Source: Tetrahymena thermophila SB210 (lineage: Eukaryota > Ciliophora > Oligohymenophorea > Hymenostomatida > Tetrahymenidae). From it: DNA of 64,000 nt. Every line of letters begins with the position of its first letter. The first letter of the stretch is position 1. A program made the translations under genes and the position numbers. The notes below the pieces were generated by a model. That model was given only the letters and a program-made list of their open reading frames with translations. It was not told where the DNA came from and did not search any database. Of this stretch, positions 15,850-59,588 are shown piece by piece. Location of the stretch: positions 1-64,000 of the forward strand of contig NW_002476202.1 in NCBI RefSeq assembly GCF_000189635.1, in the 5' to 3' direction.

Positions 15850-18800
15850 TCATTTTTCGCTAGAAACAAGCAATTTCTCACTTTAGTCAGTCAAATTTTT
15901 TTCTTTTTATAATGAATCTGTTTCTAAAGGCTGAGTAAGCTAAGAGGCTTATCCTAATTTAATTTAAATTTTATTTGAATACATTTTTATTGAAATATTA
16001 ATAGATTTGTTACTATTTTCTTCCTTCATTTGTCTTTCTTTGCTAAATAGACTTAGTTAAGTTTCTGTTCCTTAATTCTTTTTGTCATCAGCTATCGTTT
16101 TTAAATCAATCTATAAATTATATTCGTATTTTTAATTTAATTTACATGGGGTATATTTTTCTAATTATTTCTCCTAATCTTAAATTTACTCACTATCTTC
16201 TTTCTCAAGATTAAGAAGGTTATTATTTTCTTACTGTAGTTTCTTTATATTTTCTATAAATAAATTATTTTTTAATTTCATTTTCAAAAAATAAAAGTTT
16301 ACTCTAAATTTGTTTATCTAATTAGAATTAATCATCTTAACTACTACTGCTTAAAAGATTTTGCTTTTAAATATCTGCCTTTTATTAAGGAGTCAAAAAC
16401 TAACATGAATAATTTGTAATTTGCTCTAAAAATTAAAAAGAAAAATCAATATTAAGAAGCAAAGTAATAAATATTGTTACACTGAATGTTGTTGTTATAT
16501 TCCTGTATATTTAGATCGCTATCAATTTTTGCTAGCTATTGATTCTCATCATGTTAAGGAGACATTACATTATTTTAAATACTTGCAATTTACTCTATAT
16601 TTAATTAAAAATTAAAATTAGAAGTTTATAATAAGTTATATTTTTACAAAGCTTAATGCTTTTTGTCATTCTGGTGTAGTAGTTCCAATTATTTCTTGCT
16701 GAGCTTAGAGAATCAATTTAATTATTCTGTAAAATTGCAGAATTAGAGTTTACCATATTTTCCATTGGGATCATTATATCTTTTGATATTTTGGTTTCCT
16801 TTTATTTAGCATCTTCTTGTATTTACATAATATCGTAAATACTTTTACTTTTTAAAGTCTTAATCAAGCCTTTAATTTTCTTTTACACATTCTTTAGCTT
16901 CAGTAAAACAGCTATATTTTTTTAATTTTAAATTACGATATTTTCAAAAATTCTTGGAAATTTTTTCTTCACAAAAAATATAAGTTTTTGAAGATTATTT
17001 CTGTCCTCTTTTTCTTATGGAATTACAATTCTTATAATTCCAAAAGCAAGCCTTATAATAAATTAAATATTCAAAAGTGCCACAATAAGCAAAATTATAT
17101 CTTCAGTAGCTTCCATTTTTGCTGAATAGCTCTATAAAAAGTACAAATTGAGAGTTAGTGCACAAATAAAAGTTGAATGAACTTAATAGTTATTGTATAT
17201 TTTCCTAGAGTATGGATTAAGTCTGACTAACAAAAAGAAATTTATTATCATGAAAATGTTAACTAAAGCAACCTTAATAAAGATATTAATAATAATAATA
17301 AAAGCCATGAATTTTATAAAATATTATTTACCTGCAAAAATGGATTTTACTTTAGAAGTACAAAAACAAGAATCAGAGATGTTTTATAAAATATTTTGTA
17401 AAACTCCCAATAAAAGAAAGCATCCTTAAAACCTGCAAAAATGAAAGAATATTAGGTCTTTATTATAATTGAGACTTTTCTCTTATGCATTAGATAAATT
17501 TTGATAAATAACGTAATTGGTATTAAGATACCGTAGAAAATTAAAAGAGGTAAAGTAATTGAAAGAGCATAAGGCAAATGATCTTTTGAATCATAACATT
17601 TAATGCTTAAGTCTAGATCTAAATAATTTTCACTCCCTATTGAAAAGCAGTTCAATGATCTACTCAAAACAGTAACAATTGAAGTAAAGTAGTAAAAATA
17701 GATAAATATTGCAGCAGATCTAAAGAATTTCAAGGTACTTCTTCTTTTAAAGATATAAAGTAAAGTAGCGAATATAAGATAAACTAATATTGTTAGTAGT
17801 GGCAGAAAGAATGACCATAATAAATTATAAAACCATATTGGTTTAGCATTAGAATTCTTACCAATAGCGCAATCAATTGATTTACTTATTGAATTCAAAG
17901 GATTTCCTGTTATTTAAATAGGTAGAGTGATTGAAAGAGGTATATTGAACATACCACAAACTAAAGAAAGAATTTGCAAGTGATCAGTTAAGATTTTTGA
18001 AAATATCTTTGACTTATCAGATTTATCTTTTTTTAAATTAATAACAGAAAAATAAATAAAAAGTATACTAGTTAAATAATTATCTTACAGCTGTTGCCCA
18101 AAAATAGCATTCCTGATTTAGTTATGTAGTGACCTACTAGTTTGATGTAAATCTGTTTCTGTAAATTTCTTATCATAAACATGATATATATAATTATTAA
18201 AAATAATTTTAATAAATTGTTTGCTATTATTATTGACATGTTATCACTGCATTTTTAGCAAACTCCAGTACCAAAATTCTCAGCATACCTCTCACCCCAA
18301 ACTTCTCCATAAGTATCACAATTATTGCAAATAATTCCAACATGTCCTCTTTGGCAATAATGCTAATTTTTATTAATTATTTTAATATCCATAGTTTTAA
18401 TTATTAACTTTGCAAAAAAATTTAACATTTAAAAATAAATAATTGTTATACTATTGACTCAGGATCTTCAGCCTAACATGCATCTGGATTGAAGCTGCAA
18501 TTTATAATATCATCAGAGAGTTCACTGCTTCTCCAATATCCATTTTTTAAGTATATTTATGAACCTTCACACTTTAATGCAGAATCTGGACAAGGATTAC
18601 ATTAACCATCATTAATATTTAATGAATACTTTCCTTCTAAACACTAGTCACAAATTGTAGATTAAGAAAACTATTTCAAAATTTATCCTACCTGGCATTA
18701 GCTGAAATTGATCTAAACATTAAATTCCAATAATCCTTGACTAATATAAATGTTGCCTTTTGAATCAGCTAGTTAGGGTTATATATTTGAAACAATTCGA

Positions 18801-21800
18801 AATTGCATATTACTTAGGGGTTTGTATATCAATTGGGTTGTTAATGTAAATCCGCCATTAGAAAAATCATTAGATTTTAATTCACCCAAACATTAGATTT
18901 GTAAATTGCTTTAATCACAAATGACTTAAACATAAATTTAGTTAATTATTTTTATAACATCATTACTTATTTTCTTCTAACTTGAAATTGAAGGAATATA
19001 AATAGGGTTATTCTCTTCATCCAAAATGTTAATATTATGAAAAATAATTTACTAACCACTTTAAATATTTGAAACAATAAGATTTTCATTTTAAAGCACT
19101 ATTGAGGTGGTATTAGGAGCAGATATACCTTATAGATCTACTTGAATTTTCCTTAAAGTTGATCCAATATTTTTTCCAAATATATCTGCATAGTTATTGT
19201 TAATAATGTTGTTATTGTTGATTTTATTTTGTGATTACAACACAAAATCAGGGATAACCAACTAATAAAATATTGCTCCTCCTATTTGAGCTTTATTTGA
19301 AGAAAGCTAAGAATTTTACATTTATACATTAATATTATTTATGTTAATAGCACCTCCTGTGGATATTGGTGCTTAGTTTTACATAAATTAAGCATAGTTA
19401 GCTATTATTTAACCTTAATATAATGTATTGACGAAATTTATAGCTCCTCCATTTTATTTTGAACAAATATTTTATGAAAAAATTACTTAATTAAGCTTAA
19501 GAGTTAAGCTTTCAGTAATTGATATTGCTCCTCCTATTCCTTAATAATTTATGTTGCTTGTAAAATTGCTACTGTTAATAGTAACTTAATTACTTTAACT
19601 AATCTATAGTAAAGAAGAGTAAGTATTTCCTGAGATGGTATTATCTTTCATGATTACAAAAATAAAATCCATCTAAACCACATTTTGCAAACTAATTAGA
19701 GGATTGTCTCCAGTCATTATATTATTTAAAAATTGAGAAGATATTAATTAAGCTTACCCTTTGTCTTTTTGCTATTTTACACATATCATTTATATCTAAT
19801 TATAGCTTGAGGTAAAATTTTGTATGTGCAAATCAATTATGCTTATCACATTTATTGCAAATATGTTATTTTGATTTGTTTAAGACTACTGAATTATAGT
19901 ATTATTTAATAAGAATTAAGAGGCTGCAATATTAAATATATTCTTTTGGTTGTTAATTATTTAATTCAAAGTCAAATTTTGAATTTAAACTGTATCTACA
20001 GATGAATCAAATGAAATATCAGTTGAATTATTAATAATAACATTACTTAATTAGTAGGACTGGCAATTATAAGTGATTGAATTCAGGACTAGTTCTTAAA
20101 TATCAACTACACTTAAAGAAGTACTATTTTTTAATGTAATTTATTAAATTATTGTAGTTTAAGCACCAAATATATTTAAGATTTTTGAGTTACTAACTGA
20201 AATTAGTTAAATATTTTCAACATTCATATTTTTATTTTACTAAATCTAAATTAAGTTTATTCCTTAAGATTGCTATACATCCACAGACTAAATTTGCAAG
20301 TCTTAAACATTGCTTAGAGAAAAAACTGTAAGATTACTTAAACCAAAGACATTTAACTTTTTTATAACTACAGTGTTAACATTCGAAATTTTAATCAGTA
20401 CATTTTAAAGAGTGCTTATCTTGTTCAAAGTTAATTATTCGATAAATAGTTAATTACAATTACTAATAGTAATCGATTAAAATGCTTATGTATTTGGTAT
20501 AATCAGGTTTATATTTTGAAGATAAACACTGATAAAGTTTGTTAATACCAAACTTTAAGTAACATTTAGAGTCACACTTGAAATCTATAATGTTTTCATA
20601 TAGCCTTAAGTATTAAGATTTAATGCATTAACATTCAATTGCATTTGATATATTTATATTTTTTATATCTATTAAGAATAAATGCTACCATCTTACCAAT
20701 AAATCTAATTCATAGTAGATTTAGACTCCATTCTCAAAGTTAGATTGGCATTTATTTGAGAAGAATTGAAATAATTTGATTATATGCTTCCAATCTATTG
20801 CTAGTCCATATAAACTATTTCTATGAGCTACAATTTTGAATTTTAAATATTCTATAAATTCTATATTGTTTGATCAATAACAACTGCTGAGTAAGTGCTC
20901 TCTAAGCTGCGATTTTGCTGCTCTATAAAAATGTTGCAATTTTACTAGTTATCAGTTAAAGGAAAAACTAGATTTTAAATATTATTTTTTGATGAAACTA
21001 TAAAATTTAATGTTTGTTAGCCATTAGTACTCTTTTAAAGCTGAAGAACTTACAACTCTTGATACAGTCCATTATTTTCAAAGTATACTTTGTAAGTAGA
21101 ATTTTAAAATATCTACACAAGATCAACTTTACTCTTCTAAAAAATGAGGAAATAGTTATTGAACTACACATTAACAATGTTATATGCTTCTTATAATCCT
21201 GAATTTATTACAAGGTATTATTAAAGGCTTAATCCATTATAAATTATAATATTTAGAGGGCATACTGAGTAAATAAAATTGGAATCAAACGAAATTATAG
21301 CTTGCTTAAGACATGAGTTTTGTAAAATTCCTATATTTCCCAAAAATTAATTGTAAACATTAGTCACTCCCTTATTAGTAACTACATAGATCATTTTTCT
21401 GAAAGGATCATTAACTATATTAGTTATTATTGTATTTTTTAACAACAAATTATTTTGTGTTTACATTGTTTATAAATTAACTAGAACGAGAGAAGAATCT
21501 AAAGAACTTTAATAAACAACACATAAGAAATTTGTTTGTTGATTTTACGAAGAATCGAAGTCATTACTATTATATCTTTCTTCATATTCGAAGGGAATTT
21601 TCCACCAATAATTAGCTTAAATTTATTTAGATTGAAGCTTAAACACAAATTAAATCTTGATACCTGAAGATATATTAATTTTGGCTATTGAGTTACTTTT
21701 GATACTGTAAACTGATATTATATTTACAGAAGGAAGTATTACATAATCTCCACATATGAAAGCTAATGATGTGATACCTTCAGTGAATTTAATGAGGTTA

Positions 21801-24800
21801 ACTTCTTATTATTATGTCTATTACTATTATAAACTTATAGATGTTAATTAGTAAATTTATTTATATAAAATAAGAAGCTAAAATCTGGGTTGATCAAAAA
21901 AGAAGTTATCTGGTGAACCCTACAGAGGAATAGGTTGATTAGAGGATAGTTTTTGAGTTTGTAAATTAACCTAGATGATATAGAGCTGAGTGAAGTAAAC
22001 ATATATGAATTAGTTTTAACCAATTAAAACTAATTGAGTAAAGTAAGGGTAAACTTAATGCTAAAATGGCTAAAATAATAAGTTGTCCACTACCATTTCT
22101 TTGTTAAGAAGATTAATAGAGTAATTTTATTCACTATAATATATCTAATATTAATCATTAAGTACTATGTTTTAAATATTCTAATACTACTTTAAGTTGA
22201 CTTCGCTGGTATAAAGTACCTCAACTAGATCAAAGCAAACTAAAGCAGACTAAGTTATTGCAGTCAGAATGTGGAGTTATGTATTAAAAAATATGTTTTA
22301 AATAGGAGATTGACCATATTATGATAAAGAAAAAGTTTCAATAAAATCCATAGTAGGAAATCTGTAAATGTATATTAATTGATCTGAGTATAAAAAGGTC
22401 ATATTTTAGCTCTCTTCGACAAGCAACCCCTTAATATTGTTAGCGCTAACTTAGAAATAAGTTACATTGTTACTCAAGTAGTTGATAAGATAAAAATTTT
22501 GTGATTAGTCAAATACAATAAAAGTTTAGCAATTAGAATAAAAATATGTTAAGTCTGGTGTAAATATATTTTAGGTATAGTAATCAAATGTCTATAAATA
22601 TTTAGGGAATTTTCTTATAGAAATCATGTGTCTTTTTGATCCCGTGACTGCTAAAATTACGTTGTAATTAATATCATTAAATAATTAAGATTAGCCTAAC
22701 TAACATTCCAGAATATTAGGGTAAAGGACACTAGTACTTAAGTCGTTTGGAAAAGGAAATGAGTTATCCTATACAAATTGGAATATTGAAGTAGGGTAAA
22801 TAATAATAAATTATTATTATTATTTATATACTAAAGGATTAGCACATATTTTTTAGCCAAAAATAAAATTTTAAGCCTATTATTTATAAAAAATATAATT
22901 TAAAAATTATTTGAGTAGGAAACTAAGTTATGGGGGTTTAAATTTTACCAGTTTTAAAAGTGAACTGAAAAAAAGAGAATATTCTTATATATATTTTAAT
23001 AAAAACTAGATTAAAATATCTGAATATCAAGATTCAAATATTAAATTATAAGTAGACAGAAATTATAAAAATAAAATAAAAAATATTCTAAAGCATATCT
23101 TAGTAGTAAATATGTACTTTTAAATTTATATTTTTTTAAATTTGTTATTTTATAACTTGATATCAAATTAAGAATTTAAAAAATCAAGTATTAACATGGA
23201 AATTGCGTTGAAACTAAATATTTTTTTTAAGTTCAGAAAATATTATTTATGTGCTTTAAAGAATGTTTGATAAATTAAAGCATTTAAGGAACTAAGAAAA
23301 AAATTAAAGAGTTTTTGAAGAAAACAAAATATTTTTTTTGATTGAAAAATAATCAGAATAAATTTTTAGCACTTAATATTAAAAAAATATTTTTTGTTTT
23401 TAATATATTTAAATCAATTTTCTAAATAAATTTACAAAAAAATCAAACGAAGGCATTCCCGTGATAAGGTCGAATATGTAAAAGCAAGGTTGCTCTAAAA
23501 TAATCAAACTCTAATCACAATCTAAAGTAAAACTTATTGGATTAGTCAATTAATTAAAGTATTTTAATTTAAATAAAAAATCTGTCAATGTAACTTAAGT
23601 GTTATCTTATAGCTATTTAAATAAAATAATTTTTAGAAGTGTATTTATATTCTTTTTAAATATGATTGATTTACGTTTATCTTAATAACATCAGTTTTGG
23701 TCTGAGCTACTAATATCTATTGTTAAGGACAAACATCATAATATTCTATATTTTATTATAGATTAAAGGGGTTTTAAAGTGACTAAGAAGTCGAAGAGTT
23801 GTACTGATTGAGAATATTACCTTAGACATAAATAAAAATTCCTTATTACCAATCCAAAAACTTAATATTTAAGGTAAAAGAAATGCTGAAATTTATTTAA
23901 GTAGCTTCTGAATTATATTTTTAAATATCATAAATAGAGATAATCTTTTGACTACTATCGTAAACTGCAACTAAAAATTTATTGTTTTTAATATTTTAAT
24001 CAAGCAAAATCTAATTAGAATTCATGCTAATAGCATTATAAGGGAAGTTGTACAAATTTTTATGCCAGTTAAGACCCTATTCTGATTAAAAAAAGTAAGC
24101 CTAAGTATCTCCAAATTTTGCCTATCCAATATAAATATTAATTTCTGACTATCTTTTAGAAATAATCATATTTTTGGTGTCAATAATATTTTTCTCCTTT
24201 TTTATGTATTGGGTAGTATCTAAAATTCCATTTATATAATTACTTCTACTATTTGATTGAAGCTATTGTAATACTTTTAATTGCATATCTAACTTATAAA
24301 GACTGTAGTTATTCTAAAAGTATACGTTTCTAGTGTCTTAGCTAAGGTAAGTAAAATAAAAACCATCTTAAAATGTGCTACTATACTATAAATTAGTTGT
24401 ATAAATATATATTTTTCCTTGATCAAAAATAAATAATTCATTTAATGGGTCATAAATAGAAAAGAAAGCTTGATTTGAAATTTATAAAATTATTGGTGAC
24501 TAAATAGTAGTTTTCTAGCTTATAGAAAAAATTAAGCATAAATTCTAGTTAACCAGGTAAATTAAATCATTATTAGATATTAAAGGGTGTCTGCTCTACT
24601 AATCGATATACAAAAAATCTATAAATGTTATTTATTAAGAGAGTGTAATTAAACTACCACTACTTAAATCTACCTAAATCAATTACATATTTGAATAGTA
24701 GATTAAAAAAGTTTCATCACTTAAAATTATAAATTTATCAATAGGTTGGCTAGATAAATCTATAAATACTTTATTTTATTCAGTTAAATCTATAATTTGA

Positions 24801-27282
24801 TAAATTTCATACACAAATAAGAGATTTTTAGATTGAATGTAATATATATTGGTATTTTATTATTATTAAATATCAACTGACCCGCAGTTATATGCATATA
24901 TTTGTTATCCTGAGGATAAGTCGATTATTTATTCTTAGACTCCATTAGATATATCAGTCGTAAGAATTATGTATTAATTTCCTATAAAACGAGTAAAAGA
25001 ATATTTTCCATCATTTTGGCTTAACTGCAATTTATGGCTTTTGGTTAATATCTTTGATTTCTTTTATAAATTTTGTAGAGAAATAGCTAAATCATACTAA
25101 TAAATATTAATTGCTGGTAATTTAAGTTGATTTGCTTAATCTATGGAATAAAGAGAGTAACTATTTGAAGATTTGTCTATGTAGAGCATCATTTAATTTA
25201 ATGTTACTGCATAGTTAGGCAAAGGCAGTGAATAATAACCACTCTTGTAGAAGTTTTACATTTAAAATGAGTCGATGTAACTGATTTTAAAAGAAAGATT
25301 GTTCATGTTGTATTGAATTTTTACAAGTTGTTAAAAGTACAAGTTGTTGTCTTTTAATTGTGAAAAGAAAAGATTGACTATGTTATTTGATTAGAATGTC
25401 ATATTAACCAAGGTAGAAGTAGATTAAATGAAGCTTAAGTCAACAGGAATGAGATTTTAACTAATATCTAATTATTACTTCCCTTACTAATACTAGTAAA
25501 TAAAATCTGTGATATTTGCAAAGAAGAAGTTTCCATTACTCAAAAAAACAAAAAAACTATTTAAAGAGACATTTTCAAATGTCTAAACCAAGGTGAATTA
25601 TTAAGTAAGAATTACTGAATTTATAAGTTATTTCCCTGATTAATCAAATTAGGTTAATTGTAAAGTATTTAAAGTTGTGTCATATTAAAGAGCCAAAATG
25701 AGACTTTAACTTAAGAATGTGTTATCTTTACACTAGCATGGAATAGAGAGAACTTGTTAACCAGTTTGAGGTACGTTATCTTAAATGTTAACAATCAAGA
25801 AATTATTATTATTGGTTTCACTATCATAGTACACTTATAATATTAAGTTATTTCCTATTTAAATAAATGATAGAGGAAAATAAGATTAGTCATAGTCGAA
25901 TTATTTGAATGCGATTGATCTATCTTTTTAAAGTGCTCCCACCTTATTTCAATTGAAAAAAAATATTGAAATTAAAGATTTACGAAAAGGGGTTTTATTA
26001 AAATGAATATTTTTTTTAATTTGTCATACAACTTTTGAATTGTTATTAATATAAAGAAAATAAGTGTGGAAAATTAGTATCAGAGGTATAAATAATTTTG
26101 AAAAAAAATAATTGAGACAAATACATCTTTCTTTAAATTTCTTATTCTTTGATTATAAAATCTATCAAAATGCTATGGTTGGTTATTCAATTAAAATAGT
26201 TTTTTGTAAATAAAAATATTGAAGTAGAATTTGTATATTTTTTATAAATATATAAAAAAAATATTTACTTGATATTAATTATTATAGAAGATGAAATACC
26301 TGCCTTGCATAAGACTAGCTATATTGAAGCCTATACCTAATCCTAAATTTATAGAATGGATTTATTTGGAAACTATGTCGTAATACACTAAATTATATTC
26401 ATATAAAATATTTTATAAAAACACAATTTAATTTTCATCATCTACTTTCCAGATAATATAATCAGAATTTATATTTTAATCAAACTCAATCTAAAGCGTA
26501 GAGAAGTTCATTACAGTAAATCTGTTTCCAGCTGAGCAACCTCCGTATAAACCAGATATAAAACTAATAGCTTCACTTTCATTTTCCTTAAATCCATAAA
26601 GCGAATCAAAATTATCTATTGATTAAAGCACTTTTGAGAATATTATATTTGAATTTTCATCAACAAGGCCTATATTACATGCTCTTGCTCTAACTATAAA
26701 CTATTTTTAATTAATAGATTAAATCTATAGAATCTACTAATTAAACTATTAACTTGATTTGCTCTAAACTTGAATGCACTACAGAGTTTATTCGCAAATC
26801 TGTGAGTTATAGTTGGAGTATTATTACTGTGGGCATGTTTAAACACATTAAGCAGCAAGATAAGGGTTTTGAATAAACTAGGTGTTTGATTCACATACTT
26901 GTTTATTTAAAATGCATAAATTTTAATTTTAATCAAGATAGAAATTAGTATCGCACTGTTAACATACCTATAGAGCATTGCAACTAATACAACCAGGAAC
27001 TGAGCACTTGACACAAGTATTTTAGTTCTCTATTAATATGCTTATTTCATTATTTTTGCATGTTTATACACAACTATTTTTAAAATCAGAACTTCTAAAA
27101 GTGTTCTATGGGCATGTAATACAAGATTTATCGTCAATATTGAAGCAGCTCTAACAAGAATCAGAACACTATAAGCAAGAATTCGTGAGTGCATCAAATA
27201 TCTACTGATCTGGACACTAATTGCATAGATATTCCTTTATTATTAATCCTACTAAGACAAGTTATATAAACATAAATTTCAT
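15850..27282 (-). CDS. Giant surface-type transmembrane protein, copy A (Cys-rich, propeller-like, beta-helix and multi-TM)
   Basis: Read in the ciliate code on the minus strand, it runs from ATG (27280-27282) to TGA (15850-15852); the protein probably exceeds 3,000 residues. The N-terminus is a signal peptide (MKFMFIQLVLVGLI) followed by Cys motifs (CNQC, CLQCSDSCQSC, CVKC). A long region from about 26300 to 22000 has propeller-like strand pairs, for example CFYIFDLITGMPSF and LIYIYRFPTMDFIETF. From about 21900 to 18700 come beta-helix-like repeats rich in Asn, Ile and Ser. A Cys-rich hinge follows near 18480-18660 (CDQCLEGKYSL, CNPCPDSALKCEG, GYWRSSE). Then come several membrane helices between about 18100 and 16900, with conserved YWEFYKIFYKTSLI, and a Gln/Lys-rich charged cytoplasmic tail. 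The hinge and membrane module match the copies at 35643 and 49835. Many introns are present. A 640-base AT-rich block at 22800-23440 interrupts it, so a split into two genes is possible. Function is not known; a receptor or adhesin role is inference. Confidence 0.68.
22800..23440 (-). other. Long AT-rich interruption inside giant membrane protein copy A (large intron or gene boundary)
   Basis: Coding signal on the minus strand stops after CFYIFDLITGMPSF and resumes at about 22770 with DNSFPFPNDLSTSVLYPN. The block between is far longer than the usual 50-150 base introns here and lacks conserved protein sequence. The flanking exons match consecutive parts of the other giant copies (CLNPQTGTLRYDIN in copy B lines up with CQLGQSQLFNDIN just downstream). 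This favours a long intron over two genes, but does not prove it. Confidence 0.45.
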
Positions 27283-30200: not shown

Positions 30201-30297
30201 AATTGATGATAATTTAATAGATTAATTATTTATGAAATAAAATATTATATTGTGATCTTAACTTCATCAAAATAATAATAAAAGATATTATTGCTTT
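27283..30297. other. Gene-poor AT-rich region, with one weak minus-strand open frame
   Basis: Three kilobases separate the 5' end of giant copy A from the 3' end of the reticulon gene. Most is extremely AT-rich with no coding signal. One stretch, 29237-29575 on the minus strand, stays open for about 110 codons in the ciliate code and is less biased than its surroundings (it contains FNFIVDPDISIVLKDIKYI). No start, splice partner or family could be assigned, and open frames of this length are not rare when TGA is the only stop. It may be a gene relic or chance. The 500 bases next to 27282 should contain the promoter of copy A. Confidence 0.45.
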
Positions 30298-41600: not shown

Positions 41601-44600
41601 ATTTTGGTATAAATCCATTTTATGATTCAAACACTATATAAAACAACAAAGCTAGTTTATATGGTTCTAATACATTCTCTTATCCTACTTCTCTATTTTT
41701 AACTAACGAAATATAATTCAACTAGCAATATAACCAAAATATTAAATAAATAGTTTTAAATGATTTTAAAAGTGGAGGAAATCTTCCAAATTTTATATTT
41801 TAGCTGAGAGACGATATGAATATAACTGTAATTTAACAAAAAGATTAATTATTAACTTCTAAAATTTAAGTGAGTAGTAGGACATAAAATTCAACATAAT
41901 ATTACATAAGAGGTAATTCAGAAATCAGTATTGATCCTACATAGCACAATTTTAATTTTTCTAATCTTTAACTTATTGGAATACCTGAATCATCTGCTGT
42001 TATTCAGTTTACATCTGATTCAATCAAAATTTACAATCCTATTACTAGCCAATATGATTCTAATTACACATTTGATGTTTTTGTTAATTTTAGAAGTTGC
42101 TCAATTGGTGAAATAATAAATAAATACAATAATTTCTAAGAATGCTAAGCATGTGAAAATGGTAAGTATAGCCTAGATTATACAAGTTGCTATCCTTGTC
42201 CAAATGGAGGAGAATGCCAAAATGGTGTAATTTAACTTGTATAAGGATTTTGGAGAGAAGAGTAAAATAGTTCAGATATTATAGAATGTACCAATAGAAA
42301 AGAAAATTGTATAGAAAAAACATTTGGTAATTATGTATGCACAACTGGAAATATAGGTCCATTATGTGAAGAATGCGATGTAAATTATTAAATATTAATA
42401 TTTTTTACAAAATTTACTTATTTATTTTAAAAGATTTATGGATAGTTTTGGGGAGAGAGTTTCACAAGAATAAATAAATATCAGTGCACATAATGCTAAG
42501 ACTCTCAATAAAATCTATGGAAGCTATTTTTAAGTATTTCTTGGATTTTTTTTTCGCTTTAGATGACATTGAAATATGATAGAGAATATCAGATATCGAA
42601 AATTCTTATTTAAGTAATTACTAGAAAAAGATAAAATAGCAGCTCTAACCTATCCCATTTATTAAACCAAATCCTAGTTTAAAAAAGCTACATAAAAATT
42701 TTCACTAATTACATTTAGATTATTTCTTTTGTAAATTCTTTTAATTTAGCAATTAAATCAGGTAAATTATTTTTTAATTAAAAAATTTAGTTTATTAATT
42801 TGTAAGTAAATAAATATTTTTTTCAATCTCAAAATTTATTTTAATTATTTTTGATTAAAACTTTTATTTCTTAATTTGGTTCTTAATTTTAAACTTATAA
42901 TATTAAATTAGATTTGCTAGAAATTACTTCAACTATTGGAGTTCCAATATCAAGTTCAGTGGATTATTTTGATTGTCTTCTAAGATATTCTAGCTCTAAA
43001 ATACCAATAATTTACCTAAAGTTAATTATCTCATTATAAGCAATAATAATAGTTTTGATAATTTATGCTATTTGGTAAAAAATACTTCAAGTTTTTATCT
43101 AAAAATCTAAAAAATATGATATTTATTCAATATATACCGCATTTATATTTTTATTCATATTCCTATAGCCAGATTTAGTTTAATAGATGATTGGGTTAAT
43201 TTCCTGTAGATAAGTAGGAACAACATCTTATGTCCTTATTAATATGAATTATAAATGTAATTCTGAAGATTATAATTTTTATAGCTCTATCCTAGTAATT
43301 CCCTTATTGATTATTTGGGTCTTTGTTATACCTGGTATATTATTCTTTTAAGTGTATTAATATAGAAAAAAATAAAGTTTGGATAGCATTTAAGTAAACT
43401 TAAAGTATGGTTACCTATTCAAGGAGTATAAAAAAAATGTTTATTACTGGGAATTCATTAAAATAAATTAAAAAATCTTTCTTATTATCATACTTAGTTT
43501 TTTTTCATAAAATGCAGCTATAAAAGGTATTCTAAGTTATTTTGTAATTAGCTTTTATGATTTTTTAGCAAGGAAATTAAAACCTTATAGTTTGAAATAG
43601 TTGAATTAGATAGATAGTTATTCTACTAAAGTATGCGCTAATACAATGCTTCTTTGTATTTTTTAAAGTTATACTGAACAAAAATATCTATAAATATGTT
43701 GCTTTGTGATAATAGTTACTCTAAATGCTTTGTTTATCTTATATATAATACTTAAGGTTTTGTAATAAAAACTTAAATGTATCTAAAAAATTGTTTAAAG
43801 TTAAAAATTTTTAAATAAAATATGTTATAAATTAAATTGCTTTAAATCTAGAGACAAAGTAGTGAGGCCTTAGTTGAAATTATAAATATAAAAACTGCTT
43901 TTAATTTTATCAAATTTAAATTAAGATTAAAAGCACTAGCTTTTTAGACAATCTCTTAATTATTGTAAGCACTTTTTATTTTAAATATTTTAAAATACAT
44001 TTTTTAATTAAATAGAAAATATGAATTAAACAGGCATAGTTCCTATTTATAATAAATATGCGAAAGCAAAAAACTCTAAAATAGAAGCTTTTTATTAAAC
44101 ATAATCAATTTATGATAATAAAATAAGAAGTATAAACTCGCCTATGAGCCAATCTTGCTTACTAATTGCAGAAATTTCTAATAAATCTCCTCAGGACTTG
44201 AAATATGCATGTATAAATTAATTTTTTATTTCATTAAAATAAAAAAAATAATTATTTTTATACATTTTTTAGAATTAGATAGCATGAAAGAAAGACCTTA
44301 ATAGGAATAAACAAAAAAAGATTCACTTCATTTGTCAAATTAAATAAAATAAACGCCATAAAAATAGATAAATATAGAAATTGAATCATTAACTCACTCA
44401 GACTAAAACTAATATATTTTTTAATTAGATTAATTAGATGAAAATTCTAAAAAATTAAATTAAATTAATTTATTAGAGTAAATTAGTCTCAATTAAGACA
44501 CAGATTATGTTAAAAATAGCATCATTTAGCCTCTCAAAAATACTTAATCAATAAAAGGTTTCTAAAAAAACTAAAATTTGGTGATAAATTAAGGTAAAAT

Positions 44601-44803
44601 AATTTTGTTAATCTTATTTTAATTAAAATTTCTTAAAATTAAATAAAGATGATTTAGAATTAATTAATGTTTAGAAATAGCTCAAAATATAATAAAATGA
44701 ATAGAATCCTTTCAACATTTTTTCAAAAATTGAACAGCTTTAAGCAGATAATGATGAGATAATCACTATTTCCTAGCAATTAGAAGCTGAAAAATAAGAC
44801 TGA
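35643..44803 (+). CDS. Giant surface-type transmembrane protein, copy B
   Basis: ATG at 35643 starts a signal peptide (MVLSILTIILILIQSQ) followed by GQKCPQ; TGA is at 44801-44803. The first intron, about 35733-35791, is supported by copy C, where the joined peptides align (YVFNNYLKLPKTNI here, FQIYNFLKIPKTNI in C). The protein is roughly 2,700 residues. Order: propeller-like region to about 38500 (ILIIDPYS, NVYVWDAKNF); a small Cys cluster (CINDISSCMNC); a long beta-helix to about 41900, ending in repeats of the type GGAIFI...N.A...GGA like those of polymorphic outer-membrane adhesins; a Cys-rich hinge near 42140-42470 (CQACENGKYSLDYTSC, CYPCPNGGECQNG, CEECD then YGQFWGESF); about seven membrane helices at 42500-43760; and a Gln-rich charged tail. 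The topology suggests a large extracellular part and a cytoplasmic tail. It may be a receptor or adhesin; the ligand is unknown. Confidence 0.8.
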
Positions 44804-45198
44804 AAAAATAAAATAAAATGACTATCTGCTATTTATTATTCAAACAAACTAACAGACAAATAAATTAAATTTTAAATTTGTTTTTTAAAATGTTTTGTTT
44901 ATTTTTTAATTTAACTCATTTTTTAAATTAAATTTAATTATAAATTTATACATAACCATATTAATTATTTTAATATAATTACCTCTTACTAATTTACATA
45001 TTTATTAAATAAAGTAAACAAATGTTGATTTTTTCAATATTTTAAATTTATTTATCTTAACTTTAACAAATTATATTTATGTCATTAAAAAATAAAATTA
45101 GAATTATAAATTTAAATTTATTATAGTTTAAAACTAACCAATTTAAAAAAATGAACAAATATATTTATTTATGTATATAATAGTAATTAATTTTATTT
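44804..45198. other. Short spacer between convergent genes
   Basis: Under 400 bases between the stop codons of giant copy B (plus) and the flavin oxidoreductase (minus). It is AT-rich and presumably holds both 3' untranslated regions. No distinct signal was seen. Confidence 0.55.
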
Positions 45199-49640: not shown

Positions 49641-49834
49641 GTAAGTTTTTTAGATATTGATTACTTTTTATGTTTTTCTTCATTTTATCTATTTTAGAAA
49701 TTTAAGCTCAAATTGAAAGGAGGTAATCCTTATTTACTTTTTAATATAAATTCTAATAAATTAATAATTCGGCAAACATATCTACTTAATATAATTAAGA
49801 ATAAAAAAATAGCGTCATAATTACATAGTTAACT

Positions 49835-52800
49835 ATGCTTAAAATATTTACTTTAACTTTGATTACCATTTAAAATATCTTCATTCTATTTACTTATGGT
49901 TAAAAGTGCCCCTAATTGACTATGCAAAGCAGTAAAAAAAATATTTATTGATGTAATTTTAATTCAACTTTTTAAAATAGTGGCTAGATACTACGAGGGA
50001 TTTTAAATTTACAACTTCTTGAAAATACCAAAAACTAACATACTACTAGTTAATTCAGCTTTTATTAGTGGATAACAAATCGCGTATAACATATTGTACT
50101 TTGATGATATCTCAAAGAGTTAAGATAACATCAAAAATGTGATTAGAAGTAGTTATTAAAATTTATTGTATATAATTAAACATATTTTTTATTATGATTA
50201 GCCGAATTTTAGATTACACAAATGGATTTTATAGAGTCTTAAAATAAGATCCTAATTTCTAATTAAAAGCATCTGTTAATTGTAGACCCCTATAGTCTCA
50301 AAATATCGCAGTAATTTATATACAGCCAAATATAGGGAATGTCTTACTTAAAAGATTATGATCTACTTTTTATGTGCTTCATTAACTGTGAGTGTGTTGT
50401 TGTTGAAATTAATTAGTTTCAAACAATCTTAAGATTTAATAACTGTTAATATGATTCTACTCCTTATAACACTTATACTTTTACAAAAGCTTTTAAATAA
50501 TAAAATGGATTAGTTTTATTAGTGGTGTAAGATAGTATAGGTTTATTCTCATGGTCATTTCAAACTAAGACAAACAAATCCTAATACAATAGTTATTTTT
50601 AACTACCAAGTAATTTATTTTTCTTTTGAAAATTTAAAACTTAACAATTATTTTATATAATAAAAGATGGATTTATAAATTCTTCTCACAATTATGATGT
50701 GCATGATGATTATGATATTTTATTTTTAGCTGGAAATTAAACTTAATTAATTGCTTTTAAAATAAACCACTTTAGTGGTTAACCATATACGGAAATATTT
50801 CATCAAAGTTAATTATTTGGATTTCAAAATAAAGTTTCTAAATTATTTTTTTTAAATAATAGCTTTATTAAATAGTTAAAATTAATTTTACGCGATTAAG
50901 TATATAAAGGTAAATATATCTGGTTCTATTTATGAAAGTATTTTTACATCAGATGCATTTACTTTATATAGATTTGACTTTTAATTTGTCACTGATCCTA
51001 TTACAAATTAGATTTAATCGTTGAACTTCTTAAATTTGTAAAATCCACTTTAAGTAAGTTTAACTGGACTATTATTAATTTAATCATGGTGGTACTTTTT
51101 AGAAGAAAATAACTAACTAATCATTGCTGTTTAAAATTAAAATGATTAAATAAGATCCTTTCCTTTTATTTATAACTACAACAATAATACCAGCTAAATT
51201 CGTCAATGTAAATCACTTTTTTAAAATTTACCAATAAAATTAAAAATTTTACACTTAGTAAATTCAATTTATTAATTTATCAATTAAAAAGAAACCAAAA
51301 AATATTTATTTTTTTCATTTTATTTAAAGAGATTTCAAATTTTTTTATACTCTCTATTATTATACTTTAATAATATAATTAATTTAATGTTATTTCTCAT
51401 AAATTGAGACTATATCAATTAAAACCCAAACATTGTTTAATAAAGAAAAACATAATTTACTCGCTTTTTAATAGGGGTGGAGTGAGTTAATTGAAAGCGT
51501 TAAGAAATTTAAATAAATAAAAAATTTATAAGTAACAAAATATTAAATTTAGGTTATTTTTCTTTTTAAATTCTTTCAATAATTCATTTGAAGCTTTTTT
51601 CTTAATAAATTAGATTACAAAACAGACGGATACTCAAAATTATTTAGATTAAAAAATTAATAAAATTACTTTTTTGTTTCAACTTACTATAATTTCATTT
51701 TTATTACTTAAGATAATTTGAATGGTAACATAATATAAAATTATAATATTTATGGATTTGCCTACGTGGGTAATACATTCATATAAGTTGTCAACAATCC
51801 ACTTTGCTATATAACAATATTATAAGGTAATGTTGTATAGCTTTAAAAGATATCGTTTAGTTAAAGTGATTCTTAGTTTGGACATGTAAATTTCATTCTA
51901 TCACTTATTTTAATATAGTTATTCTCAAATAATTATTTCGTAAGTAAGAAATAACATTTTTTATTTTTTTCTACTATAAGGTACGAAAATTGTTTTAAAA
52001 CCTTTTTTTTTTATTTTAAATTTTCTTTTAATTTATAAAAAAAAATTTATTATCCTACTAAATATTTCTTTCTCAAAGAATAATTATTCGAGAATAGCTT
52101 TTTTATAAAATTAAGTTAATTTTTTAAATAAAGTGGTTAAATTTAGGTTATCTGTAACTAAATTAACCTTCTGAGACATACAATATCTTAGCTTTCTATA
52201 GAAAAAGCAATAACTAAGAAGAAGTATGGATTGTGATTGGATTACCTAATAAAAATTAAAATCAAAATTTCTTATTCCATATTGTTGATATGTGGAATTT
52301 CTAATTTTAAGTGTTGGTATCTAGTAATCCAGACGATAATATTAATTAAACTTGTTTCGCCCTGTATTCAAGCAAGTCACAAGAAATCATAGGATTAGAT
52401 GTAAAAGGAAACGTATACGTTTGGAATGCTTAAAATTTTACTGATTTTAAATATAAAATTTAGATAAGTAAATTTGTATTTTTTGTTTGATTTTATTTAT
52501 TTTATTAATTTAATAAAGCCTAGTACGCATGCTTAAACTCTATTATTGGTACTTTGTATGATAATTCTAATGGAATTTACTTAATAATTGAATGTGGAGA
52601 TTTTTAGGTTATTAGCTTTAACATTGTTACTGGTTAAACTTAATAAATCATCAAGCTTCAAAGTCTTTAAGATTATATGTAGTTTATTGAAGAAATATAG
52701 CTATTGTTAATTTACGATTTTTCATCTGGAGGAGATATATTTATTTATTAATTTAATTCAGGTAAGTTTCAGTATTTTATGAAAATAATATCAAATCAAA

Positions 52801-55800
52801 ACTTAGATCGTGTTGTAAATTTTACTTATTTACCAGAAGTATAACTGCTATGGATTTAGCATATTTATGCTGATGTGTATTTTGAAATCGATAAATGCTT
52901 GCATGATTTAAATTCTTGTATGAGTTGCTCAATGGATTTTTATTTTAATACCAATGAAACTTAATAAAGTAACTCACTTTATGGTTTAGGAACTACTGAT
53001 TCTCCTTTTCTTACTTCAAAGAGCATCATGACAGCTTTTTATGATGTAACCATTTTTATAAACAGCACTTCATTAAAAAGTTTTTTCTTAAATAATTTTT
53101 TATTAGGCATAAAGATATATTTAATTTTTATATGAAGCTTTGAATTTACAAATAAATATAATTGTTGATCCATCAAATACGATGAATTTAGTTTAATAAC
53201 TTCTATAAATTGATTTTGGTAGTAAAGTCAAGCTTAATATTTAGAGTATGAATTCAACTTAACAAAGCTGGATTAATATTTCAAATGTTCTTTCGTTTTA
53301 AGACTATAATTCAGTAATGTTAAACTCTTTAAAATTGAATTTTACAATATTAAATTTAGCAAATAACAACTAATGTGGTATTTAACTGACTAATGTTTAA
53401 AATACAGTTCTTCATAATTTAGACTATATCTCTTTCAATTCTTCTATTAGCTGCTTCTAAATTTAAGCAAAAAACTCTACAATAACAATTTCTAACACTA
53501 CAATATCAAACAAAGATTTTTCAAATGTAAATCAGCTTATCAGTGTAGAAAATTCAAATTAAGTAACTTTTAATTTTTATCAATAAAGATAATTAACTTT
53601 TTTTTATTTATTAAGATTTAATTTAATAACTTTCAGCTATTAAACTCAATACTAAACTACCGTTTCAGCATTTTAGCTTAGAAAAGTGATACTTTGCTAA
53701 TAATTGATAATATGATCATTTAAAATAACACTTGCAATAGCTTTGCTATCAACCCTGCTTAATCTGTTGGATAACTTTTTTAAGTAGGCCAATCTATTGT
53801 TAGCAACTTACAAATAGCAAATAATTCATTTTGTAATTAGAAAATATTTTCAACCATAAGCAACATTAATTAAATTAATTTACAATTCATTTTCCAAAAT
53901 ATTGTTCTATAGCAAAATAAATTTTATATTCAAGCACCCTATCTCTTTTTTAATGCTATTTATTATTTTAATGCAGTTCCATAGCATAGTCTTTTAATCG
54001 CAAATCTTTTTAGCTCTGAAAATATTTATAATCCTACATTATAAGAAAACAACAAAGTTTCTATTTAGACTTCCTCTTTATTTTTTACTAATTAGCTTTA
54101 AAATGTTACAATATAAAACATTACAATCCAGAATCAATATGAAATCGCTTTTAGTATTATTTAGTATTCAAATTATGTCAATTTGTACAACTTAACATAC
54201 AAAAACGATAAACAATTTTAAGATAATAGAAATAATAGATAGTATGGAGGATTTCTTATGTTAAGTGAAATTCAAACTTTTACTTTATAGTTATTCAGTG
54301 TTGAAAATATCAATGCTGTTGATAATTCAATTATAAATATGAACATTTAGCAGTATAGAAACATAAGCATTATACTTTAAAATGTGGATATATCAAATTG
54401 CTAATTCAATCAAACTTAGCCAAATACTCAGTCAAATCCTATTTTAATAACATCACAATACTATTCTAATATCTAAATCTTGCAATGTTTCTTTCATGAA
54501 AATCAACTTAAAGGCTAAATCAACTCTTAGACCTAGTCAACAACAGGATTTTAGATTGTAAGTCCATTAAGTGATATTAATATCGAAGGATCTTTTTTTA
54601 CAAACTCAAAATCAAATACACTTTACAATTTTGCTTACTTATAATGCAATAATACTTATATTAGCAGTTCTATTTTTGCTAATTCTTCATTTGATTTACA
54701 AGACCCAATATCATAATTTATGTAAGAAGGTGGATTTTTAAGAGCAAAGTTAAACAAATTAGTAATAAACAATACCTAATTCACTAACTCTACAGCTAGT
54801 TAGGGTTCATTTCTTTATATTGAACCTCTAAGCAACTCTCTTAATTTATATTTTAACAAAATTTCATTTATGTAAGGATATTCTAAAATGAAAGGAAGCG
54901 CCTTTTATATTAATAGTTAAAATTCTATTTTACTCTTAAACTGTTCTTACTGCAACTTTACACATATATACTCTTTTAGTTCTGGATCATAGGCTATTTC
55001 TATTTAGTAAAAAATAATTTTATTATAATTCAATATTTTTAATTTAAAATAATTTATTTTCTATTTTAAAACATACTAATTTACATATAAAAAGATACAC
55101 AGAAACATAGAGCCCAAGTTTATAAAATTAAATTTTGTTTGCTAATTCTTACTTCACAAATATTCTAGGATAATAAAATAATTACTTCATCAATTCAGTA
55201 AATTCATTTTTATCCTTTCAGCAAGTAATACAAATTCAAACTAAGGATTTAAGTATTCCTAAAGAATTTGCTGATTAAATTTAAAGTATGCAATCACAAG
55301 CTTTAATTTAATCAAAAAATTCTAATATAGCTATTTACTAATCTACATTTAGCAATTTATTTAATTTACCTGATCAAATATATCCTTTATTTATTAATTC
55401 CACTAATTCTAATTTGAATCTCACAAAAGTCATAGTTCAATAAAGTAATTTTTCTCAGAGTTTGATAAATTTTGATTCTGGATAATTGGTTATCCAAAAT
55501 TCTTAATTTCTTAATATTACTAAAGTTGAAAAAAATAGGTTTAGGTTTCTTTAAAATTAATATTCTAATTTAGTAAAATAGAATAATTCTATGATAATGG
55601 TATAAAACTCAAATATGTAATTATCTGGCTAAACTCTTTTTGAAAATATTTCTTGTTATTCTAATTGCTATGGTTCTTCAATAAATCTTAATAACTCAAC
55701 TTTTTAAATTAACGAAGCAAGATTCATTCGCTCGACTGTATGAATTAAAAAATAAATTTTTGTTTTAATTATTTTTTATTTAAACTAAAGGCTTAAGTAG

Positions 55801-58800
55801 GGGGTGCTATATATATCTAAGGACTAGCAACTAACAAAAATGAAATAATTAACTCTTCTTTTATAAATAATTTGGCTACTAAAGATGGAGGAGCTGTTTA
55901 TATACATGCCTTTTAAGATGATGTATTTTAGCTTAGTGTAATTTAAAATATATTTAGAGAGAATTTGTCAAATCAAGGATCAGGAGGAGCCATAATGATA
56001 AATAGTGATTCAATTAATTCAACAAAATAATAAATTTTAATAAAAAATTCTTTATTCTCAGTTAATTAAGCTTAAGTAGGAGGGGCTATTTACAATTAAG
56101 GTATACGTCCATTTATAGATTCAAGTAATATTATTAAAAATAATATTGCAAATTTATATGGATCTGATATATTCTCCTATCCTACATCTTTATTATTACT
56201 TAACATAGCTGATTTTAATTTTAACAATTAATTTGATATAAATAATTATAAAATAATCTTGAGTGATTTTAAAAGTGGAGGAAATCTACCTAATTTTATA
56301 TTTTAGCTCAGAGATGAAACAAATTTAACATTTATTTAATAAAAAAATTAATTATTAACTGCATAAGTTCAAGTTAGTAGTAAAACACAAAACAATTCAT
56401 AATATTACATTAGAGGTAATTCATAAATTAATATAGATCCTACTTAAAACATTTTTAATTTTTCTAACCTCTAATTTATTGGTATTCCTTAATCATCATG
56501 TGTGATATAGTTTACATCTGATTCAATTAAGATCTATAATAATTTCACTAATTAATATGACTCAAATTACACATTTGATGTTCATGTGAATTTTAGAAAA
56601 TGTTAATATGGAGAAATAATTAATAAATACAATAATTTTTAAGAATGTTAAACTTGTGAAAATGGCAAGTATAGTTTAGATTATACAAGCTGTTACCCTT
56701 GTCCATATGGAGCAGAGTGTACATATGGAATAATTAATCTTTAGTAAGGTTTTTGGAGAGAAGAAGAGTATAGTCCAGATATATTTGAATGTGTTAATAG
56801 AAAACAAAATTGTGATAAAAGTAGTTTTGGAAATTAAGTATGCATTACTGGAAATATAGGACCATTGTGTGAAGAGTGTGATGTAAGAAAATATTAAAAT
56901 ATTATATTTATTTATTTAAATTATATTTTAAAAGATTTATGGAGAATTTTGGGGAGAGAGTTATACGAGGTTGAGTAAATACTAATGCACATAATGTAAA
57001 AATATCAAATAGAATTTATGGAAATTATTTATCAGTGTTTTATGGATATTTATTTCACTTCATATTACTGTGAGAACAGATAGAGATTATTAGACATCAA
57101 AGATTTTAATCTAAGCAATAATAAGAAAAAGACCTATTAGTAACTCTAGTGTATCTTATTCGTTAAGGGGTATATTAATATAGAAGTGTTATATAAAAAT
57201 TTTCACAAATTATATTCAAATAACTTCATTTATAGCATCGTATAACTTAAGTTTCCAATCTGGTAAATTATATTAGAATTCTAGACTTTAGTTATTCATT
57301 TTTTTTTAAATGATAATGAATTAGATTTGTTTGAATTAGCTTCAGCTGTAGGGGTTCCTGTCTCTAGCTCTATAGATTTTTTTGATTGCTTTCTTAAAGA
57401 TTTAAATATAAAAATTCCAATAATTTACTTCAAATTGATAATATCATTATAAATAATTATAATAGTCTTGATACTATATGCTATTTGGTTAAAAGTAATG
57501 TAATCTTGCATTTATAGATATAAGAAATACGATATCTATGCACTCTATACAGGATTTATATTTTTATTCATGTTTCTCTAACCAGATTTAGTATAGTAGA
57601 TGATTGGATTAGTTTCTTGTAGGTAGGTTGGAAAATCTTCTTATATACTAATAAACATGAATTACAAATGTAATACATAAGAATTTAATTTCTACAGTTT
57701 TATTTTAGTTCTTCCTTTGCTTGCTATATGGGTTTTTATAATCCCTGGTTTATTATTCTTTTAGGTATTTTAATACAGAAGAAAACTAGGATTGGATAAT
57801 ATTTAAGTAAATTTAAAGTATGGATACTTATTCAAAGAATATAAAAAGAATGTATATTACTGGGAATTCATTAAAATTAATTAAAAAATATTTATAATTA
57901 TAATATTAAGTTATTACTCTTAAGATGCTGTTATAAAGGGTGTTTTAAGCTATTTAATAATTATGCTTTATGACTTTTTAGCAAGGAAGTTGTAACCATA
58001 TAGCTTAAACTAGCTAAACTAAATAGATAGTTACTCCACCAAAGTATGTTCATTTACAATTCTGCTTTGTATTGTTTAAAGTGATAGTGAATAGGAATAC
58101 TTGCAAGTATTATGCTTTGTTATTATGATAATCTTAAATGGATGGATTATCTTATTTATAATTTTTAAGGTTTTGCAAAAGAAACTCCTTTAAATAAAGA
58201 ATCAGATTTAAAATTCTAAATATTTTAAAAAATATTTAAGTAAATATTCATATTTTAATTCTAAAAGTTAATCAATTAAATAGCAGTTGAAATTTAAAAT
58301 GTAAAAAATTTTGTTGAAATTTTCAAATTTAAATCAAGATTAAAAGTCATCACTTTTTCACCAATATATAAGTTAAGGTAAATAAAGAATTATCTATTTA
58401 AATAAATCTTAAAATAATATTTAAATAATAAAAGAAAATAGAAGAATAATAAACTTTATTTAAGATCACAATAAATTATCTCATACAAAAAATTCAAGAA
58501 ACGAACCAAATTTCTCAGAATAATTTCTCAAAGAAAATAATTTAAAAAGCTTAAATTCACCTTAGAGTCATTCTAACTTACTAATTTTAGATCCTTCTTC
58601 TAAATCTCCTTATTTTTATTCTAAAAATGAAAATTTTAAACAAAATTTTGCATGTAAATTATTATTAAAAGTAAATACTAAGATTATTTAAAATCTTTTT
58701 TAATTTTAAAGAATAGGAAAGCATTCAAATTTTGCAAAAGCATGTATTCACAGCAGAGAAAGATTAAAAAAACGAAGAAAATTTATCTATTTCTATTAAT

Positions 58801-59588
58801 TCAGCAAATGAAGCATAGATGAATCAAGAAATTCAAGCCTTATCGCACCACAGTTAACAATAAAATTTAACTAAATTAGATTAACCAAGTATGAATTAAA
58901 AACTATAATAAATAGTTAACTTAATTATATTTAATAAATATAAGGCACTGAAGCACTTTAAGATAATATTTAACCTATAAATTAAACTTAGACAATAAAA
59001 TGCTTTTAAAAGGATTAAAGTTTTGGAAAAGATTTATGTAAAATTTATAAATAATTTTATTTCATTTTAATTAATTATTAAAAATTTAAAAGAAAACAAA
59101 AATCATAAACTCAATTCTGTAAGTTTACAAAAATAGTCTGAAGTTTTATCAAATAAATAAAATCCTTTCAATTAATTTTCGAAAATTCAATAAATCAAAG
59201 CTGATAATTATGAAGAGATGATGGCAATAGGCTAAGAATAAAAAAATTCAATAGATTAATCAAATTAGATTTAATTAACTGATTCAAATAGTTAAGAAAT
59301 GAAAATAGTAAACACTGTCAATAAAAAAGAATAGATAATTTAATAAGATTAGATTTAGCATATAGAAAATGAAGCTTAGCCTAAAGAGAGCATTTTATCT
59401 TGATAAGATATGCCAGATAAAAAATCTTAAAAAAAACTAGATGATACAATTACATTTAGGTAATATTACAATTTTTAAATAGAAAATAATATTTTAATTT
59501 TATCAAAATTAAATAAATAGTTTTAAATACAAATAGTAACGATGCTGCTAATTAATAAAACAAATAGAACCCTTTCAATAATTTTTGA
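49835..59588 (+). CDS. Giant surface-type transmembrane protein, copy C (close paralogue of copy B)
   Basis: ATG at 49835 starts a signal peptide (MLKIFTLTLITIQNIFILFT) followed by GQKCPQ, as in copy B; the first intron (about 49933-49980) splits the gene at the same place as in B. It runs to TGA at 59586-59588, after KQNPFNNF; copy B continues beyond the matching QNPFN motif, so the tail here is shorter. Architecture as in B: propeller-like region (LLIVDPYSLK, NVYVWNAQNF), Cys cluster (CLHDLNSCMSC), beta-helix ending in GGAIYI/GGAVYI repeats near 55800-56150, Cys hinge near 56640-56900 (CQTCENGKYSLDYTSC, CYPCPYGAEC, CEECD), about seven helices at 57000-58180 (including IIYFKLIISLQIIII and YWEFIKINQKIF) and a Gln-rich tail. 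In the hinge and membrane exons the DNA looks about 80-85% identical to B by eye. Introns sit at the same places but differ in length (about 260 bases at 51886-52146 against about 75 in B). The frame is kept open throughout, so it looks functional. Ligand and role are unknown. Confidence 0.78.

Follow-up and report, generated by a model that had tools for sequence, protein, structure and literature searches.

The mating-type recognition complex of Tetrahymena thermophila includes MRC2, a protein that, according to the available text of PMC10901506, combines a pectin-lyase fold with eight membrane helices and was found together with mating-type proteins and putative Ca2+ pumps. The complex proteins described there, MRC2 included, range from 92 to 212 kDa, and MTA is located on the cell surface. 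MTA, MTB and MRC1 are described, in the portions of PMC10901506 and PMC3608545 available, as having a GFR or furin-like cysteine-rich domain and five membrane helices. In full-text literature searches, in which PMC10901506 was the one paper found on such a protein, and as far as its published description goes, MRC2 is the closest characterised protein found, by layout, to the products of three giant genes, designated genes 1 to 3, in the stretch of T. thermophila SB210 DNA analysed here. This stretch, the window, is bases 1-64000 of contig NW_002476202.1 (C297 in our numbering; 314,250 bases), and the genome assembly searched for relatives has 101 Mb in 445 contigs. Genes 1, 2 and 3 are located at 15850..27273 (- strand), 35643..44803 (+ strand) and 49835..59403 (+ strand), respectively. 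They belong to a very large family and, by analogy with MRC2, most likely encode giant receptors of the MRC2 type that act in contact or recognition at the cell surface, a proposal in which our confidence is evenly balanced.

As judged from the published layout of MRC2, likeness to genes 1 to 3 would lie in the presence of a beta-helix domain and a multi-pass membrane region in one large protein. This kind of layout is, on that comparison, already known from at least one characterised protein, to which genes 1 to 3 would add members. The two may differ in helix number, with eight published for MRC2 versus seven by hydropathy or nine by loop charges in genes 1 to 3, and genes 1 to 3 have in addition a beta-rich head, and gene 1 a cysteine-rich N-terminus as well. 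MTA, MTB and MRC1 resemble genes 1 to 3 in being large and in having an exterior, a cysteine-rich part and a multi-pass end, a general layout shared by gene 4, the neighbour of gene 3, but the available text of PMC10901506 and PMC3608545 mentions no beta-helix in any of them.

The gene models were obtained with our own splice-aware Viterbi gene finder, trained on the window and using the ciliate genetic code, under which the open reading frames (ORFs) of the window were read. Some splice sites were corrected by mutual comparison of genes 1 to 3, and signal peptides were judged by eye. The first-pass annotation had listed three long genes in this region and all three are real, with the start of gene 1 now at 27273 rather than 27282 and the end of gene 3, which is uncertain, at 59403 rather than 59588. 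Gene 1 (own gene models, ~3,300-3,400 amino acids) encodes, in order, a signal peptide, an N-terminal cysteine-rich stretch, a beta-rich region, a beta-helix, a cysteine hinge, a membrane region and a charged tail. Gene 2, as given by the gene finder, and gene 3, from the gene finder with a first exon added by eye, each encode ~2,500 amino acids with the same layout minus the N-terminal cysteine-rich stretch. With a stiffer intron penalty, the gene finder ended gene 2 early, at 42579. The gene finder missed the first exon of gene 3; the ATG at 49835, already named in the earlier annotation, opens a signal-peptide-like stretch that ends in TYGQKCPQ, matching by eye the SDGQKCPQ of gene 2.

The gene 2 introns at 42380-42433 and 42762-42911 are both multiples of three in length and free of stops under the ciliate code, so that a single ORF (41222-44287, 1,021 codons) covers the last part of the beta-helix together with hinge and membrane region. 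Unspliced gene 2 RNA would thus stay in frame, whereas the corresponding introns of gene 3 shift the frame. Joined exons are open in one frame from 27273 to 16648 in gene 1, from 37312 to 43761 in gene 2 and from 51614 to 58187 in gene 3, spans that stop short of the tails and, in genes 2 and 3, of the first exon. This supports a single gene running from the head to the membrane part in each case, as predicted from the reading frames. The earlier claim that the adhesin-like exterior and the multi-pass bundle are parts of the same protein is supported by the reading frames, and the combination recurs in most of the paralogues examined. Hinge and membrane core can be aligned across the three genes, gene 2 being 71% identical to gene 3 and 31% identical to gene 1. 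From the layout originally assigned to all three, the signal-peptide-like start, beta-helix, cysteine hinge, multi-pass bundle and charged, glutamine-rich tail are retained, with the propeller as a possibility.

The beta-helix, of the type with GGA repeats known from Chlamydia, is supported as part of the exterior of this family by three kinds of sequence evidence: matches to the Pfam family Chlam_PMP, a regular spacing of GGA motifs and profile self-alignment. In gene 3, Chlam_PMP scores 28.2 bits against a cut-off of 20.6 within the beta-helix region at 53107..56573 (+ strand, from Pfam and exon models), and it also exceeds the cut-off in the paralogues L117 (37.0 bits) and L118 (24.2 bits). 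The Pfam scan covered exons of genes 1 and 3; the beta-helix region of gene 2 (38626..42079, + strand), with GGAI/GGAL coils in exon 41297-42379, was assigned by alignment and motifs. In gene 1, the region at 19031..20950 (- strand) was identified by profile self-alignment, with its start set by eye and GGA-type coils at 19537-19265. A five-member profile led by gene 1 gave an off-diagonal self-alignment with an expectation value (E) of 3.5e-8, whereas all eight column-shuffled controls had E of at least 0.81; a crude rule was used to position the stretches from the other members, and the effective number of sequences was 3.4 in the real profile and 2.3 in the shuffled ones. GGA-type motifs recur every 25-32 residues in all seven of the paralogues modelled first, L112 having one isolated extra motif. 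Upstream of the membrane core, 23 such motifs were counted at 28 loci (L017, cut by a contig end, being excluded) versus 0.38 expected from shuffling, with none downstream of the core and none on the other strand; they are present in 14 of the 28 within the 1.49 kb examined. The GGAI-type beta-helix first noticed by inspection is supported. A PDB sequence search with the beta-helix profile and with an exon of L118 returned no match at E up to 1. Chlamydial polymorphic membrane proteins are passengers of bacterial autotransporters with an outer-membrane barrel. They resemble the family in the GGA[IL]-type right-handed beta-helix repeat seen in gene 3, L117 and L118, but genes 1 to 3 have a eukaryotic helix bundle.

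Preceding the beta-helix is a region that appears beta-rich by eye. It had been described as propeller-like, a description for which no clear evidence was obtained: no Pfam propeller family matched the window exons scanned, no internal repeat was detected by profile self-alignment of the region (E 0.73), and WD40-type matches were obtained in paralogue L118 only, all below the curated cut-offs. On the sequence, a propeller in the head is possible. The N-terminal cysteine-rich stretch of gene 1 scores 15.3 bits with Furin-like_2, below the cut-off, and a counterpart was not seen in genes 2 and 3. Structure prediction, run to follow up the propeller and beta-helix assignments, was uninformative and decided neither. 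AlphaFold2 gave a mean predicted local distance difference test score (pLDDT) of 36.6 for the read-through membrane region of gene 2, supplied with five rows from genes 1 and 3, and of 31.4 for 1,190 amino acids of the gene 1 exterior as a single sequence. A Foldseek search of the PDB with the latter model returned 13 matches at E up to 10, none at or below 0.001, the model being too poor for a conclusion.

The hinge and membrane region were delimited by comparison of genes 1 to 3, and for gene 2 also from the gene model. In gene 1, the hinge occupies two exons at 18219..18700 and the membrane region 17018..18218 (both - strand, boundaries approximate; exons 18362-18089, 18026-17332 and from 17272). 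Hinge and membrane region together span 42098..43774 in gene 2 and 56574..58187 in gene 3 (both + strand), the latter interrupted by introns at 56883-56934 and 57263-57324. Across the three genes, the hinge has conserved cysteines and a GFWR/GYWR motif, and it is weakly similar to ephrin-receptor-like, ELAPOR1 TNFR-like and class C G-protein-coupled receptor (GPCR) nine-cysteine domains, all below the Pfam cut-offs. The pattern C..GY[VIT]G..C..C[DN] is present at 6 of 28 loci and C.G..I.[LVI]..[GNDE][YF]WR at 19 of 28.

For the membrane region, the three window genes, seven modelled paralogues and 35 core fragments were aligned in 45 rows, which represent 41 distinct loci as four are doubled (L003/L112, L006/L116, L011/L113 and L019/L115). 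An automatic cut on the family-average hydropathy separates seven membrane regions, in agreement with the about seven helices of the first-pass annotation. Two weaker segments were added by hand to give nine, with helix 2 the weakest (mean hydropathy 0.78), helix 1 resting on 16 rows and helices 7-9 on 25-33. In the nine-helix model, the predicted inner loops and tail have 17.6, 19.3, 24.0, 13.8 and 17.2 lysine plus arginine residues per 100 and the predicted outer loops 8.2, 6.4, 10.0 and 3.7; the exception is the 3-residue loop 6-7, predicted to be outside, with 16.3. Residues that do not vary in any of the 45 rows include two glycines, the core's W-E and K, P, and three cysteines, which all fall in predicted outer loops. 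With only seven helices, the two most basic loops would be outside and loop 4-5, with two of the invariant cysteines, inside. The loop charges and the placement of the cysteines therefore favour nine helices over the original estimate, with seven or eight less likely, and with nine the head would be outside the cell and the tail inside. No Pfam family reached its cut-off on the membrane cores of genes 1 to 3, and a three-sequence membrane profile matched no PDB chain at E up to 10.

Class C GPCRs also have a large exterior, a nine-cysteine hinge, a helix bundle and a tail. Membership of this class was considered and is not supported: neither 7TM_3 nor any other 7TM family matched the membrane cores of genes 1 to 3 at E up to 1, Venus-flytrap families had no match in the stretches scanned, and the helix number is probably nine. 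The nine-cysteine family NCD3G, which is not listed for the window exons, reaches 21.0 bits in the hinge of L115 (cut-off 38.9) and 15.2 and 15.3 bits in those of L113 and L114. Protein databases place giant protist proteins of this sort under a PANTHER name of the 'G protein-coupled receptor-related' kind; a literature search with a PANTHER number found nothing.

Membrane cores were searched for in the genome with genes 1 and 3 as the first two queries (E up to 0.01) and two distant paralogues as the others (E up to 0.001). The gene 1 query gave 150 matches and that from gene 3 gave 136, corresponding to 217 distinct loci on 92 contigs. The two further queries were entered as 53 rows, with repeats of known loci left out, and as ~100 rows, mostly one per locus, and the union of the four identifies at least 319 membrane-core loci on at least 119 contigs. 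This figure is a lower bound that counts membrane cores rather than whole genes and retains contigs that are possibly assembled twice. Of these loci, 224 lie 20 kb or less from another, with a median spacing of 11.6 kb within clusters. The earlier description of the family as fast-duplicating is supported as far as this clustering, assessed irrespective of strand, can show duplication.

The layout was examined in 11 relatives, chosen from different branches rather than at random. All seven modelled first have GGA coils, the hinge motif [GDN][YF]W[RK] and YWE, in that order. L128, for which the model is open-ended, has GGA coils and YWE, with hinge cysteines apparent by eye and the hinge pattern unmatched. 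In a motif scan, L127 (with YYWD) and L129 agree with the layout, and L130 has the GGA motifs only. The nearest relative of genes 2 and 3 is at ~852 kb of a 1,077-kb contig and those of gene 1 are in a set of six on contig C419, so that the nearest kin of genes 1 to 3 are not at this chromosome end.

The ratio of nonsynonymous to synonymous substitution rates (dN/dS) was calculated by part. Gene 2 and its closest paralogue, L112, have ratios of 0.27, 0.22, 0.17 and 0.09 in the head (the 377 codons compared), beta-helix, hinge and membrane part, respectively; the corresponding values for gene 2 versus gene 3 are 0.17, 0.19, 0.13 and 0.10. For gene 1 and L113, head, beta-helix and hinge have values of 0.26, 0.29 and 0.12 and the tail 0.46, with dS saturated in the membrane part. 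As dS exceeds 1 in the gene 2/gene 3 and gene 1/L113 pairs, their ratios are rough. These values indicate that purifying selection acts on the parts compared, most strongly on the membrane part where a value is available, and that the outside changes faster than the membrane part in the pairs for which both are available.

If genes 1 to 3 are contact receptors, the beta-helix and the beta-rich head could bind a partner, whether a molecule or a cell surface; this contact would be relayed by the disulphide-rich hinge to the membrane bundle, the loops of which might be stapled by the three invariant outer cysteines, and the charged tail could meet signalling partners inside the cell. Candidate partners may be mates, kin, prey bacteria or matrix. 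A sensory or contact role was also the suggestion of the first-pass annotation; the published layout of MRC2 lends it indirect support, by analogy. Should the proposal hold, at least 319 loci in one ciliate genome would encode receptors of the cell surface whose layout has been linked to telling self from non-self in mating. This would provide a starting point for asking how cells with several mating types and varied prey distinguish surfaces, and would define a receptor class that textbooks do not list. With its size and its conserved membrane core, the family makes the idea testable in a laboratory organism.

Several observations weigh against a contact receptor of the MRC2 type. Chlam_PMP has no match in the beta-helix exon of gene 1 nor in another exon of gene 3, and is absent from three (L113, L114 and L115) of the five paralogue stretches that include the last part of the beta-helix. 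The models of ~2,500-3,400 amino acids exceed the 92-212 kDa published for the proteins of the complex. There is no sign of positive selection in the dN/dS values of the parts compared, and the membrane cores of genes 1 to 3 and of the gene 4 group are not detectably related (hhalign probability 1.5%). In addition, the available text of PMC10901506 proposes modification of carbohydrate chains as the role of MRC2, not binding.

An alternative is that the proteins are receptors for prey or particles, with the head binding bacterial or environmental glycans and triggering feeding or clearance, and the use of MRC2 in mating a late recruitment. The size and clustering of the family suit a varied environment better than a few mating partners, and a head that evolves faster than the membrane part fits as well, but no known glycan-binding domain was recognised by Pfam in the exons scanned, and we regard this explanation as possible but unlikely.

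Gene 3 adjoins gene 4, a giant protein with furin/GFR repeats and a C-terminal membrane region on the - strand (60096..64000 in the window, the model continuing to ~70464; gene model and Pfam), so that the locus holds both general layouts of the mating-type recognition complex. The gene 4 model has 3,329 amino acids, with an uncertain start and cysteine repeats that are very similar to one another, and exceeds the Pfam cut-offs for GF_recep_IV (44.1 bits, cut-off 29.5) and VSP (50.9 bits, cut-off 31.4). A genome search with its membrane core gives 17 matches, one of them gene 4; a comparison of the gene 4 stretch with plasmids gave no match and is uninformative. A YW...E/KP-F pattern, shared by eye, raised the possibility of a common family for the GFR-type and beta-helix-type cores. 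This is not supported: hhalign does align the stretches with each other, but with an E of 0.033 and at the low probability given above, and hmmsearch placed none of eight GFR-type sequences above threshold. As genes 1 to 3 lie beside a gene with the layout of a GFR-type partner, recognition complexes like those of MTA, MTB and MRC may serve non-mating tasks. Genes 1 to 3 would then belong to a separate, non-GPCR receptor class with a beta-helix sensor, a cysteine hinge and a transducer of probably nine helices, forming a large, duplicating repertoire of which one member is used in the mating complex; we put this forward tentatively, and as doubtful.

An ion channel, or a channel-associated protein, in which the membrane core does the work and is gated by the exterior, mechanically or through a ligand, would account for the core residues (W, E, K, P and others) that do not vary across the 45 rows and for the core having the lowest dN/dS where computable. 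The core is also reminiscent of fungal and protist TRP-like proteins. With no Pfam channel family matched and no PDB chain found by the three-sequence profile, a channel seems distinctly unlikely. It is improbable that the proteins are carbohydrate-active enzymes of the cell surface, with the beta-helix as a polysaccharide-modifying domain on a membrane anchor: the role proposed for MRC2 from its pectin-lyase fold, as far as PMC10901506 is available, favours this, but the repeat recognised here is of the adhesin-type PMP kind, and no lyase or hydrolase family of Pfam was found in the exons scanned. That genes 1 to 3 are pseudogenes, or artefacts of the assembly of a repeat family in decay, is very improbable. 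Tandem repeats of similar genes may be mis-assembled, some matches elsewhere contain TGA stops and the matches on contigs C45/C74 and C372/C420 are equal in score and spacing, maybe the same sequence assembled twice; against this, the exons compared in genes 1 to 3 join in one open frame and dN/dS is 0.09-0.29 wherever computable outside the tail.

The contig begins, at 1..25 (+ strand), with C4A2 telomeric repeats that include one C5 variant, identified by direct reading and by tandem-repeat detection. The family had been called subtelomeric, and its distribution was evaluated on the 73 contigs that carry 182 of the 217 loci found with the first two queries. Of these contigs, 33 start with a C4A2 telomere and some others with masked bases; the telomere test used contig starts only. 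Within 60 kb of the telomere-capped starts there are 14 of 86 loci, the three of the window among them, versus 10.5 expected (P 0.22), or 10 of 45 clusters versus 7.0 expected (P 0.14), so that the excess is not significant and the designation is not sustained. Within 30 kb, there are 9 of 86 loci versus 4.5 expected (P 0.065), and within 100 kb 18 of 86 versus 19.3. When all contig ends are counted, 99 of 182 loci are within 60 kb versus 75.3 expected (P 0.002), and on contigs of at least 250 kb 39 of 113 versus 23.1 (P 0.0055), but this excess is not taken as telomeric because many contig ends are assembly breaks. There may be a modest bias toward telomeres. The C4A2 starts, the G+C content and the use of the ciliate code fit a macronuclear genome of Tetrahymena. 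Macronuclear chromosome ends in Tetrahymena arise by programmed breakage, and an end here therefore need not be a germline subtelomere. A 2019 study that compared ten Tetrahymena genomes (PMC6564038) reports, in its available text, that the pericentromeric and subtelomeric regions of the germline are enriched for species-specific and tandem genes, and it counts GFR cysteine-rich domains as one of seven leading classes of domain; its main text as available was searched for beta-helix and pectin, and neither term was found. Three more membrane-core loci are present on the same contig near 232, 243 and 270 kb, away from the end that forms the window.

Genes 1 to 3 have spans that sum to ~30.2 kb and so fill half of the first 60 kb. 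The window has a G+C content of 16-28% in 2-kb steps, and its telomere-proximal end carries other conserved genes, recognised by Pfam, besides a homologue of IFT122. The latter, with both Pfam IFT122 propeller families above cut-off, extends from 5821 to ~10956 (+ strand), so that a conserved ciliary gene lies less than 11 kb from the telomere; its model overruns into the next gene and needs trimming. A protein with a cyclic-nucleotide-binding domain is encoded at 1791-4485 (+ strand; cNMP_binding, 52.1 bits), and the gene at 11375-15319 (+ strand) resembles it, by eye only. A small reticulon-like membrane protein is encoded at 30298-31388 (- strand; Reticulon, 41.5 bits), and an NADH:flavin oxidoreductase of the old-yellow-enzyme type, at 45199-46428 (- strand; Oxidored_FMN, 258.3 bits), is located between genes 2 and 3.

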